From an uncultured Prevotella sp. (GTDB lineage Bacteria; Bacteroidota; Bacteroidia; Bacteroidales; Bacteroidaceae): DNA of 64,000 nt. Of the stretch, positions 32,113 through 45,301 are shown in pieces. Numbering within the stretch: the stretch's first letter is position 1; the number at the start of each line of letters is the position of its first letter. The stretch is from assembly GCA_905234145.1 (NCBI GenBank), contig CAJOGK010000025.1:1-64000 (forward strand). Direction: 5' to 3'. A model generated the notes under the pieces. The model saw nothing but the letters and a program-made list of their open reading frames with translations, did no database searches and had not been told where the DNA came from. Made by a program: the position numbers and the translations under genes.

Positions 32113-34227
32113 CTATTTCTCTATCAGCCAATACTCCATGTGATTGGTCTTGCGCTTGCTCTTGAAGTTGAACTGCACATCGTTAAGGGCATTGCCGATT
32201 TTCTGGAAGGGAGTATCAGGGTCGAAGCTCTGATAGCGGGCTGCTAGCAACTGACTGATCTCGCCCAGGCTCCACCACTTGGCCTGCTCTGTTTCCTTGG
32301 GCCTGCGGAACGTCTCGCCTATCATCTCCACCAGATCGTTCAGCTTCTGGAAAGGCTCATTTTCCTGAATGAGCGTCTGGATCTCATCATCGTTCAGCCA
32401 GAATCGCTCATGATTATTGAAGAGGTGCAGGGCTTGGGCGAAGAGCTGTTCATGATAGAGGTTATCCTCGAAATTGATATTCCCGTTCACACCCACACAG
32501 ACAAAACGACGCGAACCCGTGGGATCCACAAGTGGCTTCAGCTGGTTGGTCGTACCAATAAACGAGGTATAGCGACGATAGAACTTGATTGTCTTGCCGT
32601 ATGGCGGACGGAACTTGACATCGCTCGACGACAGCAGGTATTTCAGCACGATCTGCTGGGAATTCGTGGTCTTGTCGAACTCATCGATATTGATGAGCGC
32701 AAAGCTTGTCAGCGCGATGTTCAGGTCGAACTCATTCTTGAAGTTCAGCTTGTCATTATAGTAATCACGCAGTTCTGGAGGCAGGATAATCTTGCAGAAG
32801 CGCGTCTTTCCACAACCCTGACGGCCTATCAGAAGCGGTGTTAACGCATTGCCCGTCAACTGCTTATCGCTCTCGCGCCACTGAGCCACCATACCAATCA
32901 TCCAGAACTTCAGGTACTTCTCCCAATGAGGCTGCGAGGTTGGCACGCGGGCTGCCAGATCTGCGATGTAATCATGACCATCCCACTTAGGCAGCTTGTC
33001 GAGCCAGGTGTTCACCGGATCGTACTGCTCGATGCGCGTCGAGTCGATAAAACGGTTCACGTTCCTATCCCACGCTTTCAGTCCTAACTCGGTGGCTCTC
33101 AGCGTCATATCGTTGCGCACCTCCTCTGTCAGCGGTTTGAATCGCTGGTCGTCGCTGAACTTCTCGCGATACTCTGCCACACCCGTCAGGAGGTTCTTGC
33201 GCATATCAAAGTTCGAGTTGAGGAAAATCTCAGTCTTCATCGCCTGGATGGTATCTTCCGGTACGCTTTTCATGGGCTTTATCTTGTGCTTCTCGCGATA
33301 GTCTTTCTGTTCAGCCACGCTATAGACCGTCTGGAAAATCTTCTCTACCAGCAGCCTGTCGCGATTCAGCACAGGGTGTAGCAACGTCAGTCCCTGCGCA
33401 TGTGCCTTGGGAATGCCCTGATCCAGACACATCGAGGCAATCTGCATTAACAGCGTCGCCTCCTTGTTCTCATCGGGCAGGTCGAAATAGTGGCCCATCA
33501 CCGTCTCAACGATGAAAGTCCAGTTCAGATGATAGGTACGTGTAACTGTGCGACCAGGCATCAGATGATCCTCCTCGCGACTGATCACCACAGGCTGAGG
33601 CTGGTCGTGACTGTCTGTATCGGCATAGAAGGAACGGGCCTCAGCACGGTAAACCGCCTCAGGGTCAGCACTCATATACACCGTGCGGTCTAATCGAGGC
33701 TCCAGAAACTGGATGTCGAAGCCAAACTGATTCTGATAAGCCCTTCGCGCTGTGTTGTAAATATTGAGATGGAACTGTCGGATGTCCTTCTGCTCTGTTG
33801 GCAGTCCGCCTCCGAACAGCTCGCCTCGACACACAATCTTGACACTCCTACCAGAGCCTCCGAGGAAGCAAAGCATCGTCTCAGGCAGTTTCTTGGCTGC
33901 CTCCCTGATTTCCACAGCCTTCTCGTAGGTGGGCAGATCGTTCACCTCAAGCACGACGAGACCATTATACGTCATCATCTGCCATTGTCCCTTGCGATTC
34001 ATATAGTCGGCAGCGAAGCAGATTCTTGGCAGACGGATACCACCTTCCCACTGCGTAGAGATCTGCCCGTCTGCCAGTCGATGCGGATTCATCAGATGAT
34101 ACACCTCTCTGGTCCTCGTAACAGTCTTCTTTATCATCCCCTCCTGGATGGCAGCCGCCAATTTAGCCAGTTCTACACGGTTAATAACCTCTTTTGTTCC
34201 AGATTTTTTGAGCAATGTGACGTTCAT
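32113..34227 (-). CDS. VirE N-terminal (BT4734-like) / VapE primase-helicase / DUF3874 protein
   Basis: VapE Walker A LLIGRQGCGKTRFCK, Walker B ALINIDEFDK, FIGTTNQ; N-terminal MNVTLLKKSGTKEVINRVELAKL. Confidence 0.85.
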   Translation of the reverse strand: MNVTLLKKSGTKEVINRVELAKLAAAIQEGMIKKTVTRTREVYHLMNPHRLADGQISTQWEGGIRLPRICFAADYMNRKGQWQMMTYNGLVVLEVNDLPTYEKAVEIREAAKKLPETMLCFLGGSGRSVKIVCRGELFGGGLPTEQKDIRQFHLNIYNTARRAYQNQFGFDIQFLEPRLDRTVYMSADPEAVYRAEARSFYADTDSHDQPQPVVISREEDHLMPGRTVTRTYHLNWTFIVETVMGHYFDLPDENKEATLLMQIASMCLDQGIPKAHAQGLTLLHPVLNRDRLLVEKIFQTVYSVAEQKDYREKHKIKPMKSVPEDTIQAMKTEIFLNSNFDMRKNLLTGVAEYREKFSDDQRFKPLTEEVRNDMTLRATELGLKAWDRNVNRFIDSTRIEQYDPVNTWLDKLPKWDGHDYIADLAARVPTSQPHWEKYLKFWMIGMVAQWRESDKQLTGNALTPLLIGRQGCGKTRFCKIILPPELRDYYNDKLNFKNEFDLNIALTSFALINIDEFDKTTNSQQIVLKYLLSSSDVKFRPPYGKTIKFYRRYTSFIGTTNQLKPLVDPTGSRRFVCVGVNGNINFEDNLYHEQLFAQALHLFNNHERFWLNDDEIQTLIQENEPFQKLNDLVEMIGETFRRPKETEQAKWWSLGEISQLLAARYQSFDPDTPFQKIGNALNDVQFNFKSKRKTNHMEYWLIEK

Positions 34228-34293
34228 ATCGTTATTTTTTCGTTTATTTCATTTATGACGCTGCAAAATTAAAATAATTATTTCATTAAATAG

Positions 34294-34400
34294 CCTACAT
34301 TCCTACATAAAAATACTTAAATCTATTATAAATACTATGTTTTCTTAAATTTTTAGCCTACATTAAGCCTACATGAATCCTACATGATGTCTACATGTTT
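34294..34400. repeat. Left iteron-like array: CCTACAT motifs; last four tandem with 11-bp period
   Basis: CCTACAT at 34294, 34302, 34357, 34368, 34379; TCTACAT at 34390. Confidence 0.85.
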
Positions 34401-34512
34401 TCAGTCAGATTCAGTCCGTTTTCTGCCAGATGAACCACCTGTTAACCTCTCATAGCCTACCTGGAAGAATCAGATTAACGTACTTTCAAATGTTTTTATT
34501 AATACTTCTTGC

Positions 34513-34595
34513 TGAATTCTCTAGAGAATTCACAGCTTATAGCCGTTCTAGCACTTGCTAAGTGCCTGGCAAACCATTCAATTCTCTAGAGAATT
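34513..34595. repeat. Pair of AATTCTCTAGAGAATT palindromes flanking hairpin GCACTT-GCT-AAGTGC
   Basis: TGAATTCTCTAGAGAATTCA 34513-34532; GCACTTGCTAAGTGC 34551-34565; AATTCTCTAGAGAATT 34580-34595. Confidence 0.85.
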
Positions 34596-34700
34596 CATAA
34601 GTTATCACGTACTAAAAACCTTTTGAACTGTGTATTCGAATACATTTACCCTGCCTATCAACCCCTAAAAGCCACTAATCATGCTCAAAAATCCACTTTT

Positions 34701-34796
34701 CATGTATATTTCATGTAGGCTTTATGTAGGATTCATGTATACTTGAATATTGGATAATCAGTTTAATATCAATATATTATAAACAAATCATGTAGG
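34701..34796. repeat. Right iteron-like array, opposite orientation: four 11-bp repeats CATGTAnnnTT plus one further ATGTAGG
   Basis: CATGTATATTT CATGTAGGCTT TATGTAGGATT CATGTATACTT; ATGTAGG at 34790. Confidence 0.85.
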
Positions 34797-35387
34797 TATG
34801 TATGCAGTTTTATAATATTCATTTCAAATAAGATGTTTCAAGGAGTAATTTTCAGTTTGCGACATACCTCCTTACGACATTCAAGAATTTATCATTCGGA
34901 TACTGCTTGAAATAAAATTCCAGTCAGTTTTCTTGTTTAATTCATTTTTTATTTTGAAATTTTGGATAAAATCGAAAACCTTTTGTAAATAAAGGCAGTT
35001 CGGAGAATTGAGAAAAATCTGGGTTACGAACTGGCAACGCTACTCATTTCCTCATTCTGCTGTGATTTGCTTGTCAAAGCGCTCGACCTTTGGTCGCTTC
35101 GCTCCGCGAAGAACTCCCGACGCTGAGCCACCAGCCTGTTTCCGCTCGAGCTCCGCTCGCTTGCTACCAGCGGGACGCAAGAATGGCTCATTGTCGGGGG
35201 CAAAGTCTCGTAGCCATGTACAGGAGCAGGTTTATGACATGACCACAGAAAAAAGAAATGCGAACCTTTTCGCTTCGCAATGCCTTTTTCAGTCGGAATC
35301 GGCAGAATTAGGTTCGCATTTTTGGTTAGTTCGCATAAATGATGTATCTTTGCAAACGGAATACGGAATAAAAAACGATATGTAACT

Positions 35388-36199: not shown

Positions 36200-37414
36200 A
36201 TGAGTGACTTAAAAATATCTGTTAAGGATTTCAGGGCAATCCATAGTGCCAGCATTGACCTCAATGGCATTACCGTTATCGCTGGTGTGAACGGAAGTGG
36301 CAAGAGTACTCTGTCAAGATTGCTATATACGATATTTAATAAAGTGAAAACATTAGACGATGTCTATTGGAGTGTTTTCTATTCTGAAACATTTGCAATA
36401 AGAGAGGTCTGTCAACAAATATACGATACATTGAAGCCCTCCGATTTAAACTTATTGTTTGGGACAACTGTTGAAGAGGTTCGAAATGAAATTCAGAAAG
36501 CCATATCGTTGTTAACAGATTCATTTAGCCAAGATGAGAAAATCAAAAGACTTCTCAGCATCATTAAGTATAACTTAGGAATAGAGATAAAAAACAAGGA
36601 AGATCTTAATCTCATAATGGATGTTTTCAATAAAACTGCTGCCAGATATGAAGAAAGGAAGAAAAACCGTTCATTTAAGGAATTAGGAAACGAGATAGCA
36701 TCAGAACTACAAGAAGATAACATCATTAATAAAGTATCACTTTCTGAGTATGGCTATACATTCTTTGGTCCTGGCGTAGAGAGTGTTCCCTTGTTGCATA
36801 GTGTCAAGTTCTGCACATATATTGATACACCCAAGAAACTGGAGGTTCCTTTCTCTTATAGCGAATGGGATTACATTAATAGCCAAAAGGATGCAGCATA
36901 TAATCAAGAGATAAGTAAATATCTATCGGATAACATTTTAAAGGGTGACGCATCATATTCAGATCAATGGAAAACTTTGATTTACCAGCGTAATGATGGC
37001 CAGACGTTCGATCTTTCACAAAGTGCCACAGGTGTGCAGGCTTTCGCCTTTCTCCAGTTGCTATTGAAGAAGGGACTTATCAATGATCGTTCACTCATTA
37101 TTATTGACGAACCTGAAGCCCATTTGCATCCCCAGTGGATAGTGGAATATGCCAAAGTATTAGTGGAACTCAACAAGAAGACCAAAGCCAGATTCTTTAT
37201 TGCAACGCACAGTACAGACATGGTTAGTGCCCTCCGCTATATCTCTGAGAAAGAAGAAACGCTTGATCATCTTTCATACTATCGGGCTGTTCCTGCAGAT
37301 GCAGATGCCTATACCTACGACTATCAGAATATGGGTACTGATATTGAACCAATATTCGAGTCTTTCAACAAGTCGTATGAACTGATAGAGAAATACGGAA
37401 CAGACAATGGCTGA
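36200..37414 (+). CDS. ABC/OLD-like AAA ATPase, defence-associated
   Basis: Walker A GVNGSGKSTLSRLL, LSQSATGVQAF signature-like, Walker B LIIIDEPEAHLHPQW, FFIATHSTDMV. Confidence 0.85.
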   Translation: MSDLKISVKDFRAIHSASIDLNGITVIAGVNGSGKSTLSRLLYTIFNKVKTLDDVYWSVFYSETFAIREVCQQIYDTLKPSDLNLLFGTTVEEVRNEIQKAISLLTDSFSQDEKIKRLLSIIKYNLGIEIKNKEDLNLIMDVFNKTAARYEERKKNRSFKELGNEIASELQEDNIINKVSLSEYGYTFFGPGVESVPLLHSVKFCTYIDTPKKLEVPFSYSEWDYINSQKDAAYNQEISKYLSDNILKGDASYSDQWKTLIYQRNDGQTFDLSQSATGVQAFAFLQLLLKKGLINDRSLIIIDEPEAHLHPQWIVEYAKVLVELNKKTKARFFIATHSTDMVSALRYISEKEETLDHLSYYRAVPADADAYTYDYQNMGTDIEPIFESFNKSYELIEKYGTDNG

Positions 37415-37882
37415 ATATACTATAACAGATCCGAAAGGTATTTGCTGTTGTCAGACATTCAAGGTATGCATACCCTTCTAAAGAAAGAAGGGTGTATAGA
37501 TAGTGAAAACAAATTCACGGATGAACAGAAAGCAATAGCCCTTGATGAAGTTCAAACGCGGATAGCTCAACAAAACAAAACGGACAAACAGGCATCTGCT
37601 GACGTATTGTTATGTATTACTGGTAACAAGTATCTGTTGGCAGATGCAAAGTTCAACAGCACCAGCGTCAAGAACATTTCACCTACAGAGTTGAAATCAA
37701 AGCTGAACAGTTCAAAATCCCTTGTTCTCTCCGATGATTACTCTTATGCTAATGCATTCTACGTGTTGTTCAAACAAAGTGTACTGACCCCAACCCAATA
37801 CAACCGCCTAAAACGTCAGTTTGCAGGAAAGCCTCAGTTTCGCTTCATGAATGCAATAGACTTTTGGAAGTTATTTGATTAG
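37407..37882 (+). CDS. Small partner of the ATPase, putative PD-(D/E)XK-like nuclease; apparent frameshift near 37436
   Basis: ATG overlaps the ATPase stop (ATGGCTGA); downstream frame LLLSDIQGMHTLLKKEG...ALDEVQTR...LLADAKFN. Confidence 0.55.
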
Positions 37883-37895
37883 ATAATACTGCGAT

Positions 37896-38549
37896 ATGAA
37901 TAACAAAGAACCTGGTTACGTTTACATACTGACTAATCCCAGCTTTCGCGAGGATTGGGTAAAGATCGGTAAGAGTTCACGTCCTGTGGATGTGAGAAGC
38001 AAGGAATTGGATAATACTGCTGTTCCCTTACCCTTCGAAATATTTGCCACGATGAAGACTACGAAATACAACGAGGTAGAGAAACTGGTACATAAGACCA
38101 TTGATCGCCTCACAGACTTGCGCATCCGTCAAAACCGCGAGTTCTTCAATGTAGCCCCACAAATGGCTCTTGACATCTTCCGCGATATTGCTATGACGAT
38201 AGACGATGCCGAAGTGACACTCTACGAAGATAACAAGCCCATCGTGGAAAGTGAACACAAGGAACCGCAGAAACGAGAGGTAAAACGCCCTCGTTTTAAG
38301 TTCTCTATGTGTGGTATCAAGATTGGCGAGCAAGTTACCTTCGATCCAACAGGTCTTGTTGTAAAGGTTGCTTCCGATGACAGCATCGAGTACGAGGGAC
38401 GCATCTATAAACTCTCCCCCTTCGTTGGCACCTTCATGCCAGAAGAGCAGCGCAACAACTCTGGTGCCTATCAAGGAGCCAAGTATTTCTCATATAACGG
38501 CAAAGTGCTAGATGAGATTAGGAAAGAGAAAGAAACTATACAAGAATAG
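37896..38549 (+). CDS. GIY-YIG nuclease family protein (T5orf172/MUG113-like)
   Basis: GYVYILTNPSFREDWVKIGKSSRPVDVRSKELDNTAVPLPFEI. Confidence 0.8.
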   Translation: MNNKEPGYVYILTNPSFREDWVKIGKSSRPVDVRSKELDNTAVPLPFEIFATMKTTKYNEVEKLVHKTIDRLTDLRIRQNREFFNVAPQMALDIFRDIAMTIDDAEVTLYEDNKPIVESEHKEPQKREVKRPRFKFSMCGIKIGEQVTFDPTGLVVKVASDDSIEYEGRIYKLSPFVGTFMPEEQRNNSGAYQGAKYFSYNGKVLDEIRKEKETIQE

Positions 38550-38553
38550 AAAT

Positions 38554-39971
38554 ATGGATTATATTGGCGAGAAAGAGCTGAATAACAAACTTGATGACTT
38601 TAAAAACCAGACAGAATGATTTTGTCTGCTAAGTTTGGCGATGGTAAATCATTCTTTCTTCAGAAGATAAGAGAAGATAAAGAAAGATTTGCAGAATATG
38701 AATTTATCACGATATATCCGGTAAATTATGTTGTTGCACAGAACGATGACATTTTCGAATATATAAAAAGAGATATTCTGATTCAATTAGTGAAATTGAA
38801 GTTGATTGAGAAAATTGATTTAGAAAAACTACTATCTTCTGTTTTTTCTTATGACAGTTTCAAAGAAGTGTTGTTTTTCCTGATTTCAAGTATTCCTCAA
38901 TACGGTCCAATCATCAAGAAATTACTGGATAAAGCAATAAGCATATCGGAGAAATACAACGACGAGAAGAATACATACAAAAAATATTTTGATTCATTCA
39001 AAGTTCAAAGGGGTGGACTCTATGAAGATGATGCATATACCCAAATGATTAAGGAGGCTATAAGCTTATTGAAAGTTGGCTATATTAATGAAAAGGGAGA
39101 ACTGACTCAAAAGAAACCTGTTTTAATCATCGAAGATTTAGACCGTCTTGACCCAGCACATCTTTTTAGAATATTAAATGTTATCAGTGCCCATATTGAT
39201 GATGTAATTAAACCAGACAAGATAGGGAATAAGTTTGGCTTTAGCAATATTGTCATAGTTATGGACTATGATACGACTAAACATATATTTGAACATTTCT
39301 ATGGAAAAGACGCCTCGTATAATGGCTATATGAGCAAGTTCATTACCGAGGAGCCTTTTAGGTATAGTATAACAGAATTAGCTTTGCCTAAATTGAAAGA
39401 GAAAATAATAAAAGAAGTGGGGATAAATAAAGATTTATTTAAAGCATTTAAAATACTTAATATGAAGTTGTCTGATCTGTCAATGAGAGACATTGTAAGG
39501 CTTTACGACTTCGACACCTCCACACGAATTGTTTTTCCTGTATTAAATTGTCCTAATGACGTCAAATTATCAATGCAATTACCTATATTTAAACTTCTCG
39601 TTTACATGACAGAATTGGGCATGTCTTTGGGGGATTTAGATGAAGAACTATCATTAAAAAAGGATTATAATTCCGTTGATTACTTGACATTAATATATCC
39701 TTTATATCTTATAGGAAATCATGAGCCCTTTTCAAAATTTGATACAGGCAGAAGAATTGTTAACGTAATTCTTCAAAAAGAAGAAGGTATTACGAAAACA
39801 ATTATTATTGGAGATAATAATCGTCCAATCACTGACGCTCCATCGATATCTAATGTAAACAAGCAATATGGTTTTGTGTGTTCTATATTAACTTATTACA
39901 TAGATTTGGCAGGTTTTAATCGTAGCAAGAGTTACACAATTCCTGGCTATTTACCAACTTTTAATTTGTAA
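38554..39971 (+). CDS. KAP-like P-loop NTPase; first 21 codons separated from the Walker A frame by an apparent frameshift
   Basis: MDYIGEKELNNKLDDFKNQTE* then ILSAKFGDGKSFFL (Walker A); PVLIIEDLDRLDP (Walker B). Confidence 0.7.
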
Positions 39972-39974
39972 AAT

Positions 39975-41900
39975 ATGCCGACACTGAATTGGATAGGAAA
40001 AGACAAGGTGGTGAATCACCATTTGGATGTGCCGTTTTATACGCTGGAACACAAATATGGGTTTCGGGCGGAGGATGAAGCGGATACATCTGAAACGCAT
40101 AGCGGCAATATGATTATTCATGGGGATAATCTTGTTGCGCTGAAAGCGTTGCTACCAGAATATGAAGGACGGGTAAACTGTATCTATATTGATCCGCCTT
40201 ACAATACTGGTGAAGAGAAGTGGGTATATAATGACAATGTGAACGACCCGCATATCAAGAAATGGCTGGGCGAAGTGGTTGGCAAAGAAGGGGAAGACCT
40301 TAGTCGTCATGATAAGTGGCTATGCATGATGTATCCACGCTTAGCCTTGCTTCAAAGGCTGCTTCATCCGCAGGGAGCTATTTTCATTTCTATTGATGAC
40401 AATGAATATACTAATTTAAAAGCAATTTGTGATGAGATATTCGGAAAGAATTGTTTTGTTGCTAAGGTTACATGGCAAAATAATTATTCAATAAGGAATG
40501 ATGCCCTTGGCATTCCCTATGATACGGATAATATATTGATATACAGTAAAGAGCCTAATTGGTCTCCGTTTAAATTGGAGAGAACTGATGAGATGAATGC
40601 TAGATATGTAAACTACGATAATGATGTAGTTTCATACAAAGTTACTCCTATTCATGCTCCAGGGGCTAATACTCACAAAAGCATGGTTTATGCAATACAA
40701 CATCCATTAACAGGAGCCTTAATGTACCCTCCCAAGGGAAGACATTGGAAAGACGGACAAGATAACCTAATTAAAGAACTTGAGAATTGGGTGCCATATA
40801 AAAAGGAAATTATTGACGACAAAGTGATTCGGCAAGACATCTGTGGGAGTGATGTTGAAGATGATGTGTTTGCATTAATGCTTAAAGAGCCATTAGAGTT
40901 ATCCGCAGAATTATTTATTAAACGATATGCAAATAAGCCTTGGCCCAAATATTTCTTTTTGGCAAATGGCGAAGGAAGCATCCAGTCTAAAACATATCTC
41001 GACATTACCAAAGGAAAGGTCGTGTCAACACTATGGAAATATGAAGATGTTGGAACAAATGTTGAAGCAACAGCTGAATTGAAAGAAATATTTGACAATG
41101 CAAAGAAGTTTGACACTCCCAAGCCAACCCGTTTAATAGAACGAATTTTGGAAATAGCAACTAACGACAATAGTATCATTCTTGATTGTTTCGCAGGAAG
41201 CGGGACTACAGCGCATGCCGTTTTACTTGCGAATAAAAAGAAGCATAGCCATCGAAAGTTTATTTTGGTTGAACTGATGGACTATGCAGACACAACAACT
41301 GCTTATCGCGTAAAGAAAGCCATCACTGGCTATAAGGCCACAATGAAGCATGAAGAAGAAATCTACAACAAGAAACTGACGGTTAAGAATCTGACAAAGG
41401 CTGAAACATTTTTGAAAGAAGCAGAAGCCGTAATAGAAAAAGAGCAAGAGAACTATGCCGAAATCAGCAAGCCCAAATTGCAAGACAACTGTATCAAGGT
41501 AATTGCTTCAAGAGTTTCTGATGGTTTTGTAAAAGGTTTAGGCGGCTGTTTCGATTATTACGAATTGGGTAAGCCTCTCTTTAAAGAAGACAACAACCTA
41601 AATGAAGAAGTTGGAGAAGATAAGATTCGTAACTATATTTACTATACAGAGACAAAACAACCTCTAACAAGGATGCGTGAGAATGGTTCGTATTTGCTGG
41701 ATACCTTGAACGGAACTAGTTACTATTTCTATTACGAAAAGGACAGATTGACCAATCTGAGTTTGGAAGATCTAAGCATCGTTACAGAAAAAGCCGAACA
41801 ATATATCATCTATGCAGACACCTGCACTATAGATGAGCAGACAAGGGCAAATCTAAAAATCATATTTAAAAAGATTCCAAGAGACATAAGAAGATTCTAA
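39975..41900 (+). CDS. Type III restriction-modification DNA methyltransferase (Mod), beta-class
   Basis: IHGDNLVALKALLPEY, YIDPPYNTG, later DCFAGSGTTAHAVL. Confidence 0.95.
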   Translation: MPTLNWIGKDKVVNHHLDVPFYTLEHKYGFRAEDEADTSETHSGNMIIHGDNLVALKALLPEYEGRVNCIYIDPPYNTGEEKWVYNDNVNDPHIKKWLGEVVGKEGEDLSRHDKWLCMMYPRLALLQRLLHPQGAIFISIDDNEYTNLKAICDEIFGKNCFVAKVTWQNNYSIRNDALGIPYDTDNILIYSKEPNWSPFKLERTDEMNARYVNYDNDVVSYKVTPIHAPGANTHKSMVYAIQHPLTGALMYPPKGRHWKDGQDNLIKELENWVPYKKEIIDDKVIRQDICGSDVEDDVFALMLKEPLELSAELFIKRYANKPWPKYFFLANGEGSIQSKTYLDITKGKVVSTLWKYEDVGTNVEATAELKEIFDNAKKFDTPKPTRLIERILEIATNDNSIILDCFAGSGTTAHAVLLANKKKHSHRKFILVELMDYADTTTAYRVKKAITGYKATMKHEEEIYNKKLTVKNLTKAETFLKEAEAVIEKEQENYAEISKPKLQDNCIKVIASRVSDGFVKGLGGCFDYYELGKPLFKEDNNLNEEVGEDKIRNYIYYTETKQPLTRMRENGSYLLDTLNGTSYYFYYEKDRLTNLSLEDLSIVTEKAEQYIIYADTCTIDEQTRANLKIIFKKIPRDIRRF

Positions 41901-41903
41901 ATT

Positions 41904-44480
41904 ATGGAACTAAAGGACTATCAAAAGGAAGTATTAGACGAACTGAATTCATATTTCGGTTATCTGGAAAAATACCAAGACTTGAGAAAATCATATCAAG
42001 AGTTTTGGGAAGATAGGGGCATTTCGTTGTCATCACCAGAGAACAAGATTATCCGTCCGTATGACAACAGTATCAAGAATGTGCCAAATGTAACTATCAA
42101 AGTGCCAACGGCAGGTGGAAAGACATTCATTGCCTGCAATGCACTAAGAACTATCTTTGACAATATGCCAGAGGAATTAACCAAAGTTGTGACTTGGTTT
42201 GTACCTTCAGATACGATATTAAAGCAAACCTATCAGAACTTGTCCAATCCAAGCCACCCTTATCGGCAGAAAATTGATAGCCTCTTTAATAGTCGTGTGA
42301 ATGTCGTCAGTAAGGAGTCTGCACTGATGGGCAAAGGAATGTCGATGAATGATTTACGCGAGAATCTAACAATTCTTGTGCTCAGTGTTGATTCATTTGC
42401 CACGAATACAGGCAATGATCGTAAATCGTATCGTGAGAATGAGAATCTATCTGAGATCATCAAGCAATACTACCAATCCATCAGCAAGGTGAAAGGTGCA
42501 GACGAGTATTCATTAATGAACTTAATCTACCATTTGCGTCCTGTTGCCATCATTGACGAAAGCCACAACTTCGAAAGTAATCTGCGTCTGGATATGCTGA
42601 ACAGTTTACACCCTAGGTTTATTCTTGATTTGACAGCCACGCCAAGAGACAAGAGTAATGTGATTAGCTTCGTAAACGCTGCAAGATTGAAAAAGGCTAA
42701 CATGGTAAAATTGCCTGTTATCGTCTATAATCTTAATTCTGCAACAGAAGTGCTATTTTCTGCAGTTAAGTTGCAGGAGAATCTGGAGAAGAAAGCCGTT
42801 GAGGAGGAGAAGAAAGGGGGCAAATACATCCGTCCCATTGTTTTGCTACAAGCTCAGCCAAAATCGAAGGACGATAGCATCACATTTGAGCAAATTAAAA
42901 AGAAACTTCTGAGTTGGAATATTCCAGAGAATCAAATCAAGATAAAGACGGCTAATGTTGACGAAATAAAGAATATCAATTTGATGGACAGAGACTGCCC
43001 TGTTCGTTTCATCATTACAGTCAATGCCTTGAAAGAAGGTTGGGATTGTCCTTTCGCATACATATTGGCATCGTTGGCTAATAAGACTTCACGGATAGAT
43101 GTAGAACAGATACTTGGCCGTATTTTACGCCAACCTTACACCAAACAGCATCAAACAAGACTACTGAATCTATCTTACGTATTAACATCATCTTCCTATT
43201 TTTTGGAAACTGTAGATAACATAGTTGATGGATTGAATAAAGCCGGATTTGGGAAACGAGATTACAGGGTTGCTTCTGAGAAGCAAATGGCAGCAGCTAT
43301 TGCACGGCCAAAAGAACCTTCGCTGTTTGATGAGCAAACAGATGACTTGATATTAGAAAATGAAACTGTTTCGTTCGATGATCCAGTTAATCAGTCAACT
43401 ATTTCTGATGCGGTAAAGGATATTGAGGAGAATGCTGAGGCTGAAGGTGAGAAGTACGAAGCTGCCATCAACGAAAACAATGATACATCAAACATACCCG
43501 ATTTGAATACATCAACAATAAATGAATGTTTCGCATCTGCGAAAGAATTGGTTCTTCCTCAATTCGTGATGCCCGTAAAATACGATAATACTTTCTTCCA
43601 AGAAGACAAAGAGGTTCTTGTTACAAAAGAAGCATTAAGTGAAGGCTTTGAATTGGACAAACAAAGCAGGGATATAAGTTTTGTATGGACAGACATTAAA
43701 GGAGTTCAGATTGATGTTGATGGTAGTGACTCAACACCAAAACATAAGGAATTGAGTGCTGATGAAATCAATTACTTCAATCAACAGATTTCAAGTCTTG
43801 CACCAGAACATCAAAAAACTCAGATTGCAAAATATATTGCTAAACAGATAAGGTATGATTATATAGCAGATAATCAGATTACCGACTACCTGTTGTCTAT
43901 CTTCAAAAACTATTCAGACATTCATATTTCTGACATTATTGCCCATAAAGAAATGGCAGTAGAGATTGTCAAGGATAGAATAGAAGAATTCCTGTTTGAA
44001 TACCGCAAAGAGAGATTCAATCAGAGAAGGAAAATGCAAAGAATAAAGTGTGTGCCAAAGTATGTATTTCCTACATCTATGCCAGTTGTAAAAGAGTCAC
44101 ATATGGCAAAAGGACTGTATGAGCGTGAAGACGGAAAGATAAATACTTTCGAATATACCGTCATCAATAAAGTTGCTAATCTTCCCAATGTGGAATGGTG
44201 GCACAGAAACCCTACGGGTAAAAACGGCTTCTGTATCAATGGCTATATCAACCATTATCCTGACTTCATTGTGAAAATGAACAATGGCACGATCGTTATT
44301 ATTGAAACAAAAGGTGATGACAGGGATAACTCTGATAGTAAGAATAAATTGGATTTAGGTCTGAAATGGGAAGCTGATGCAGGAACAGGTTATAAATACT
44401 TTATGGTGTTTGAGCATAATAGGATTGATGATGCTGTAGATGTTCAAGAATTGTTGGAGATATTAAAAGGAATGTGTTAA
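41904..44480 (+). CDS. Type III restriction endonuclease (Res), DEAD/DEAH helicase + nuclease
   Basis: VPTAGGKTFIA, IIDESHNF, LTATPRDKS, VEQILGRILRQPY, C-terminal PDFIVKMNNGTIVIIETKG. Confidence 0.95.
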   Translation: MELKDYQKEVLDELNSYFGYLEKYQDLRKSYQEFWEDRGISLSSPENKIIRPYDNSIKNVPNVTIKVPTAGGKTFIACNALRTIFDNMPEELTKVVTWFVPSDTILKQTYQNLSNPSHPYRQKIDSLFNSRVNVVSKESALMGKGMSMNDLRENLTILVLSVDSFATNTGNDRKSYRENENLSEIIKQYYQSISKVKGADEYSLMNLIYHLRPVAIIDESHNFESNLRLDMLNSLHPRFILDLTATPRDKSNVISFVNAARLKKANMVKLPVIVYNLNSATEVLFSAVKLQENLEKKAVEEEKKGGKYIRPIVLLQAQPKSKDDSITFEQIKKKLLSWNIPENQIKIKTANVDEIKNINLMDRDCPVRFIITVNALKEGWDCPFAYILASLANKTSRIDVEQILGRILRQPYTKQHQTRLLNLSYVLTSSSYFLETVDNIVDGLNKAGFGKRDYRVASEKQMAAAIARPKEPSLFDEQTDDLILENETVSFDDPVNQSTISDAVKDIEENAEAEGEKYEAAINENNDTSNIPDLNTSTINECFASAKELVLPQFVMPVKYDNTFFQEDKEVLVTKEALSEGFELDKQSRDISFVWTDIKGVQIDVDGSDSTPKHKELSADEINYFNQQISSLAPEHQKTQIAKYIAKQIRYDYIADNQITDYLLSIFKNYSDIHISDIIAHKEMAVEIVKDRIEEFLFEYRKERFNQRRKMQRIKCVPKYVFPTSMPVVKESHMAKGLYEREDGKINTFEYTVINKVANLPNVEWWHRNPTGKNGFCINGYINHYPDFIVKMNNGTIVIIETKGDDRDNSDSKNKLDLGLKWEADAGTGYKYFMVFEHNRIDDAVDVQELLEILKGMC

Positions 44481-44500
44481 AGAATTAGAAAAATAGGGCA

Positions 44501-45301
44501 ATGGAGAGAATTGTATTTGTTGAAGGCAATATAATCGCCTATAGTGGTAATCACCTAGCAAAAGGATTAGTATGTTTAGCGACAGACAAATACAAAGAGA
44601 AGGCTGTTGAAGTAATCAATGGTGATCTTGAATTGTACGAACACAATCGGATAATTCCTTTCTATACTTATGCCGCCAGAGGCGGGGTAACATCTCTTGG
44701 CCATAATTTAGGAGTTGTGCATAGTCCTAGTAATGTATTAAACCTCTATAAAGAAGAGATAGAAAAGATTAAAAGATTATTAAACCTTGTAGTTCCTGAA
44801 GATCTTCGTCCAACTCATAATAGACATCTATTTATTGGAGTAATCGGAACATTAGAATTGTTTTTGTCTGAAATGATTTCTTGTTTAGTGCTGGGTGAAG
44901 AACAGTTTTATCATAATTTTATTGAAAATACTAGTTACAAGATTTCTCTGAAAGATATAGAAGAAGGAGGACAGATGTTGGACAAAGCGATTTATAAAGT
45001 TATACACAATATTAATGCTCATAAATTAAAGGAAATAAAGGATGTCTTCAAGAATGTTTTTGATGTAAATATTCCAAATACCACTGAACTTGGAAGGTAT
45101 ATAGAGAAAAGGCATGACTTAGTTCACAGAAATGGCAATAGAGTCGACGATAGAACTTTGAGATATGTGGATATTACAGATAGAATATTGCAGGACCTTA
45201 TTCTTGTGGTAGATACTTTTGTCGATCATTTAATGGATGCCCTAGTATTACCAATAGAAAAGTGGAATGAAGGTTTTGAAAATACGGGGACTGGTCATTG
45301 A
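44501..45301 (+). CDS. Hypothetical HEPN-like protein following type III R-M
   Basis: C-terminal helical region with HEPN-type Rx4H motif: EKRHDLVHRNG. Confidence 0.55.
   Translation: MERIVFVEGNIIAYSGNHLAKGLVCLATDKYKEKAVEVINGDLELYEHNRIIPFYTYAARGGVTSLGHNLGVVHSPSNVLNLYKEEIEKIKRLLNLVVPEDLRPTHNRHLFIGVIGTLELFLSEMISCLVLGEEQFYHNFIENTSYKISLKDIEEGGQMLDKAIYKVIHNINAHKLKEIKDVFKNVFDVNIPNTTELGRYIEKRHDLVHRNGNRVDDRTLRYVDITDRILQDLILVVDTFVDHLMDALVLPIEKWNEGFENTGTGH

Follow-up and report, generated by a model that had tools for sequence, protein, structure and literature searches.

In iteron plasmids, tandem phased iterons adjoin the initiator gene and are accompanied by AT-rich DNA. The initiators of SaPIs act at an origin with two iteron sets, an organisation that has been described as peculiar to PICIs (PMC6092414), and the iterons are recognised by the C-terminal domain of the SaPI Rep protein (PMC7581432). 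The SCCmec element, which has ccr recombinases, carries only three 5-nt direct iterons at its putative origin, downstream of the Cch2/CCPol-MP gene (PMC7581432). Proteins with a BT4734-like domain are listed among the archaeo-eukaryotic primases (AEP), outside any clade (PMC5862659). VapE genes of the BT4734-like type are multi-copy in Bacteroidales genomes; little literature was found on this family and no paper was found for BF3469.

Here we describe a block of repeats beside a BT4734-like vapE gene in a 64-kb stretch of DNA (the window) from a rumen Prevotella. The gene and the block together look like a stand-alone, partly mobile replication module. With moderate confidence, we favour the reading that the block serves the adjacent VapE as its cognate site for binding and helicase loading, and most likely as its replication origin. 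This reading draws on the architecture of the block, its conservation, the covariation of its iterons with VapE, purifying selection on vapE, and dispersed copies of the block that have no vapE.

The block lies upstream (5') of vapE and is mirror-symmetric: two inverted iteron arrays with an 11-bp period surround a pair of palindromes 65 bp apart, and each array is separated by an AT-rich spacer from a double iteron at the outer edge (Table 1). In a repeat search the arrays came out as a pair of inverted repeats, 33 and 31 nt long and 85-87% complementary, and palindromes 1 and 2 as an 18-nt perfect repeat, in register and with starts 65 bp apart. The two CCTACAT sites of the vapE-side double iteron start at 34294 and 34302. 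The window contains 18 copies of CCTACAT where 6.4 are expected, and eight of them fall inside 503 bp. Nucleotide homology to the closest orthologue (L044) ends at 34820, just past the block. On the strict inverted-array score that is defined below, the window locus scores 8, and 162 dinucleotide shuffles of such regions score at most 4. No Rfam family matched the block and a reading as an RNA element was dropped.

The motifs, arrays, palindromes and hairpin named by the first-pass annotation were all found where it had placed them, and the exact 11-bp period of both arrays was verified. Its description of the region was incomplete at the edges: the arrays and palindromes are as reported, but the outer layer of double iterons had been missed, and an ATGTAGG taken as a lone site is half of the vapE-distal double iteron. 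The palindrome TGTATTCGAATACA, which had also been singled out, is present in its place but is absent from the closest orthologue; it is probably incidental and was dropped as a component of the block.

Table 1. Features of the window locus, with related features of other loci. Positions are those of the window unless a locus is named.
Feature	Position	Strand	Remarks
vapE, 704 aa	32113..34227	-	PF08800 4e-40, PF05272 3e-33
VapE residues 631-704, candidate iteron-binding domain	32116..32337	-	strongest correlate of iteron sequence
VapE residues 1-64	34036..34227	-	divergence tracks iteron sequence
Entire symmetric block, putative origin / loading site of VapE	34291..34806	.	516 bp
Outer double iteron, vapE side, CCTACATTCCTACAT	34294..34308	+	8-bp spacing; also in L002 and solo copies
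AT-rich spacer, vapE side	34309..34356	.	12% G+C
Left array, four 11-bp iterons, (C/T)CTACAT core	34357..34400	+	exact 11-bp steps
Palindrome 1, TGAATTCTCTAGAGAATTCA	34513..34532	.	motif reading and repeat search
Central hairpin GCACTTGCTAAGTGC	34551..34565	.	sequence varies among loci (not conserved)
Palindrome 2, AATTCTCTAGAGAATT	34580..34595	.	motif reading and repeat search
Palindrome TGTATTCGAATACA	34631..34644		absent from closest orthologue L044
Right array, four inverted 11-bp iterons	34701..34744	-	exact 11-bp steps
AT-rich spacer, vapE-distal	34745..34789	.	about 17% G+C, measured on 34745-34786
Outer double iteron, vapE-distal, ATGTAGG + ATGTATG	34790..34804	-	8-bp spacing
HU-HIG gene	L139:260-733; L002:332-829		divergent from vapE
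Iteron of L003 block			CCTACT
Iteron of L139 block			TCCGACAT

The layout is conserved. Homologous loci with 65-94% identity (80 in number) were taken from a scan of GTDB genomes, giving a scored total of 81, and each upstream region was scored for two inverted, non-overlapping arrays that each hold at least two 7-mers spaced by 11 bp. As the first-pass annotation had predicted for the arrays beside homologous vapE genes, two iteron sets flanking a centre, the arrangement of PICI-type origins, were found in the form of inverted arrays at 78 of the 81 loci (score of at least 5, median 8), while none of 162 dinucleotide shuffles exceeded 4 and control periods of 9, 10, 12 and 13 scored at most 5. 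In all 75 loci tested for it, both arrays point inward and have a common consensus. Of the 78 loci, 55 have the palindrome pair, with a distance of 65 bp in 51 and 66 bp in 4, and its centre is offset from the array midpoint by 4.5 +/- 27 bp. Nucleotide homology to the window mostly covers the vapE ORF and little more (the exceptions are the orthologous L044, and L047), and the loci therefore lie at different chromosomal places; the window's own genome (G000) carries further vapE paralogues. Relatives also occur in isolates, namely Xylanibacter ruminicola Ga6B6 (L056), Prevotella ruminicola KHT3 (L115) and Prevotella sp. ne3005 (L071). More distant Bacteroidales VapE genes (31-35% identical), from plasmid records of Bacteroides and Parabacteroides and from faecal viral contigs, also have repeated palindromes and short repeats upstream, seen by eye and of other sequence.

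The combination of PF08800 with a helicase domain places VapE in the BT4734-like AEP primase-helicase family. The protein consists of a BT4734-like primase domain (residues 65-193), a VapE/SF3-type helicase domain (409-624) and a DUF3874-like C-terminus, and it is matched by PHROG models of phage DNA primase and helicase families. The single solved structure found with a VapE profile was 7pds, PriRep1 (E 4e-12, residues 401-657), and the entry for this structure of PriRep1 with dsDNA also gave the top Foldseek matches; the whole VapE model has a pLDDT of 69, with a helicase core too weak to interpret. The dN/dS of vapE is 0.03-0.08 against relatives with a dS of about 0.7-2.0, which indicates that the protein is kept functional. 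Primase activity is uncertain, because motif I, read by eye, is LVVLEVN (VLEVN) with invariant E94 and N96 instead of hhhDhD/E, and K130 stands near a possible place of a motif II histidine (window 33820-33970, residues 87-136); the primase may be altered or inactive. Two further matches of this part of the protein were seen, a weak one of residues 1-207 to the PADLOC model of reverse-transcriptase-associated VirE-PriCT2 (DRT; E 2e-9) and one of residues 65-191 to a CRISPR-associated PrimPol model (E 9e-34).

Iteron sequences differ among loci and can be sorted into about ten core classes (CTACAT, CTACAC, GACAT, TCTACT, CCTACT, TACAC and singletons). When pairwise iteron similarity was regressed on six VapE segments, residues 1-64 (beta 0.39) and 631-704 (beta 0.55) were each matched in 0 of 300 permutations, which ignore shared descent, and the remaining segments received no weight. 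At a core identity of 75-80%, the identity of the C-terminus is 0.69 within an iteron class and 0.54 between classes, a contrast that fades at higher core identity, where the compared classes differ little. In L061 the iteron is changed at a core identity of 0.89, and C-terminus identity is 0.66. Residues 631-704 are modelled by AlphaFold as three helices with a beta wing (beta hairpin), and short winged-helix proteins were among the weak Foldseek matches of VapE (E about 1). We regard the covariation as strong but not conclusive evidence for a link between VapE and the iterons, since the permutations leave shared descent uncorrected. The first-pass annotation had proposed that VapE or an associated factor binds the repeats, and covariation of the iterons with the terminal domains of VapE is what such binding would be expected to leave.

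A role of the block as an operator is possible because the block must contain the vapE promoter or adjoin it. In about 28-35 of the 81 loci a gene for a DNA-binding HU-HIG protein (PF18291) is divergent from vapE and lies beyond the block, so that the arrays and palindromes could autoregulate vapE and this gene by binding that starts no replication, and binding alone would explain the covariation of the iterons. We nevertheless consider it unlikely that the block is an operator and nothing else. Some complete blocks have neither vapE nor a divergent gene pair beside them and lie, for example, between convergent genes; the symmetry, the double-iteron ends and the paired palindromes are more than an operator needs; and VapE is a helicase, not a repressor.

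The likeness to PICI/SaPI replication modules that the first-pass annotation had pointed out holds for both the architecture and the protein. VapE and the PriRep1 type of initiator (PDB 7pds) have a homologous Rep helicase, by profile and by fold. Both systems combine a primase and a helicase in one protein, have two iteron sets around a centre, use locus-specific iterons and have the C-terminal domain as the candidate for specificity. They differ in that the PICI/SaPI ori is immediately 3' of rep, whereas in the scored homologues the block precedes vapE on its 5' side, with an exception in one genome (G024) where the block is split around vapE. The AT-rich melting region of PICI/SaPI origins is located between the iteron sets, whereas here the AT-rich tracts (12-17% G+C) are outside the arrays, between them and the double iterons, and the centre has 38% G+C. 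Paired conserved palindromes and outer double iterons in the block, the lack of an integrase, xis, terS or phage link, and the dispersal of vapE-less copies in the genome also set it apart. The protein and the two-array layout are PICI-like. What departs from that pattern is where the block lies, its outer double iterons and palindrome pair, the absence of satellite genes, and the dispersal of copies that have no vapE.

With Cch2/CCPol-MP of SCCmec the module shares a self-loading helicase, a C-terminal dsDNA-binding domain, an adjoining repeat region and a chromosomal element as its setting (PMC7581432), but the block comes without recombinases and its arrays are long, inverted and upstream. 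Compared with iteron plasmids, the block is chromosomal, there are two inverted arrays and the initiator is a primase-helicase. MITEs and REP-RAYT systems are similar in having short non-coding dispersed units with the same ends as a gene-bearing copy; their partner protein, however, is a transposase or HUH nuclease and not a primase-helicase, and here the ends are iterons and a target duplication was not seen.

The genes that recur near the vapE loci are the HU-HIG gene upstream and, on the downstream side, conserved housekeeping genes that include dnaK and folD (named from sequence). In several species vapE is located just past the 3' end of dnaK (L055, L062, L066, L069, L075, L076, L105), and this site is therefore probably old and vertically inherited. 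Beside the block in the window, positions 36200-45301 hold a compact defence-like island with genes for an AAA ATPase (PtuA/AriA-like), a KAP-type P-loop ATPase, type III methylase and restriction subunits, a weak HEPN protein and a GIY-YIG protein that matches PADLOC PDC-S57 (E 9e-74).

The term satellite, used by the first-pass annotation, did not hold. No integrase, transposase, capsid or phage family recurs around the 81 vapE loci; the proteins that were scanned near the window copy included no integrase, recombinase, phage, capsid or terminase protein; and the element is absent from the viral contigs (searched by protein and palindrome pair), phage DNA and plasmid DNA that were searched. 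VapE proteins in plasmid and phage collections are only distant, below 60% identity. A phage satellite or an anti-phage island would agree with an initiator related to SaPI PriRep1 and with a neighbouring island of type III R-M, GIY-YIG and AAA ATPase genes, but in view of these searches we hold either to be very improbable, and a satellite or prophage reading was rejected.

Repeats away from vapE, which the first-pass annotation had counted as evidence against its proposal, do exist in the genome, but as whole blocks and not as loose repeats. In the window's genome, 16 copies of the palindrome AATTCTCTAGAGAATT form eight pairs, each with a distance of exactly 65 bp, and five of the pairs (on contigs C16, C19, C34, C69 and C71) belong to full blocks with no adjacent vapE, here called solos. 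Over about 600 bp, four of the five can be aligned with the block of the C36 vapE; they have their ends in common, their flanks are unrelated, and no target-site duplication was seen by eye in this five-copy alignment. Solo copies are roughly 75-87% identical. For an empty-site comparison of a solo in this genome, the relatives, 84% identical at best, are too distant. Other genomes also contain solos: five in G031 carry the iteron of that genome's own vapE, those of G007 have an iteron in common with the C47 vapE, and those of G018 have no matching vapE among the assembled ones. In the scan of solo blocks for iteron patterns, the control with reversed patterns was uninformative since TACAT is the same read backwards. 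Unpaired copies of AATTCTCTAGAGAATT (29 in number) were seen on C1 of G037 (L141, L142), in another dispersed repeat that begins with CTGACAAAAAACGGGC.

The complete genome G024 contains a 740-bp element in 15 well-matched copies, or 18 when mismatches are allowed. At one place a vapE gene sits inside the element: what precedes the gene matches the left end of the 740-bp unit, and what follows it matches the right end. Dispersed copies (L165-L168) share both ends with the gene-bearing copy (L164), as MITEs do. In the sister genome G125, which is 89% identical at one common site, there are about four copies. At the site of L235 the element is absent from G125 and both flanking genes are kept, but the rest of the intergenic stretch is also different. 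At the site of L234 a single flank was recovered in G125, the other flank being a different repeat. A solo block is adjoined by a separate repeat of ~170 bp (L234, about 2100-2270) that is present some 20 times in G125. G024 also holds four near-identical VapE proteins (L159-L162; 698 aa). They belong to a larger repeated unit, distinct from the 740-bp element, whose copies span several kb and are 88-97% identical.

These solos could be relics, i.e. vapE loci that have lost the gene by deletion and are kept as passive or host-used sequence, with nothing moving. Their sequences are not fresh, a remnant of the HU gene persists alongside the C69 solo, and the vapE copies on C36 and C124 (L009, L011, L152) are split in two or more frames in the assembly; the C36 block may lack a working VapE partner, unless the frameshift is an error of the assembly. 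Loss alone is nonetheless an improbable explanation. No vapE remnant was found beside 31 solo loci at E<=1, several solos have common ends, and G024 has 15-18 copies against about four in its sister. The comparison of these two genomes favours spread rather than decay, although the junction is not clean.

A reading compatible with an origin is that the blocks are non-autonomous and MITE-like, served by VapE in trans (replicative copy-out) and inserted by a host or other route. The solos of the window's genome, the iteron match in G031, the many copies in G024 with ends that match both sides of the vapE element, and the orthologous site without the element in G125 all speak for it. It has to be set against the lack of a target-site duplication, the intergenic stretch that differs as a whole at the compared site, the absence of a transposase or integrase, the many vapE loci that are fixed at one site across species (e.g. 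beside dnaK), and the G018 solos. We take this as a real possibility, though one that falls short of being probable. The dispersed vapE-less copies, uneven between G024 and its sister, suggest MITE-like spread of an origin that would be served in trans by the primase-helicase.

If the block is the origin and loading site of VapE, as we favour, the protein would read the 11-bp iterons via its C-terminal winged helix and possibly also via its N-terminal 64 residues. Each inverted array would seat a VapE oligomer on one helical face, and the two oligomers would face each other head to head. Melting would take place in the AT-rich spacers or at the centre of the block, and the VapE helicase would unwind the DNA together with its own primase domain. 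The palindrome pair stays constant while the iterons vary, and may be bound by an unvarying factor, either a host protein or an invariant surface of VapE. In this way vapE and the block would act as a stand-alone chromosomal replication module with no integrase. Several observations count against this reading: no extrachromosomal copy was found in the viral, phage and plasmid collections searched, the block is 5' and not 3' of the gene, its centre is not AT-rich, and the primase motif and the VapE model are weak points. A more far-reaching proposal, which we make tentatively and hold to be less likely than not but to have a real chance, is a new kind of mobile element, in which an origin would spread among Bacteroidales chromosomes with a primase-helicase as its only driving force. 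It would include autonomous copies with vapE and origin-only copies, each family being insulated by an iteron code of its own, and would need no transposase or integrase.

The BT4734-like family thus gains a testable job defined by a protein, a DNA site, a predicted recognition domain and a natural specificity code of about ten iteron classes. If the assignment is right, a PICI-type origin organisation would also exist independently of satellites, in a chromosomal module that stands alone. Whether a primase-helicase can move DNA by itself is a question posed by the dispersed blocks that have no vapE.
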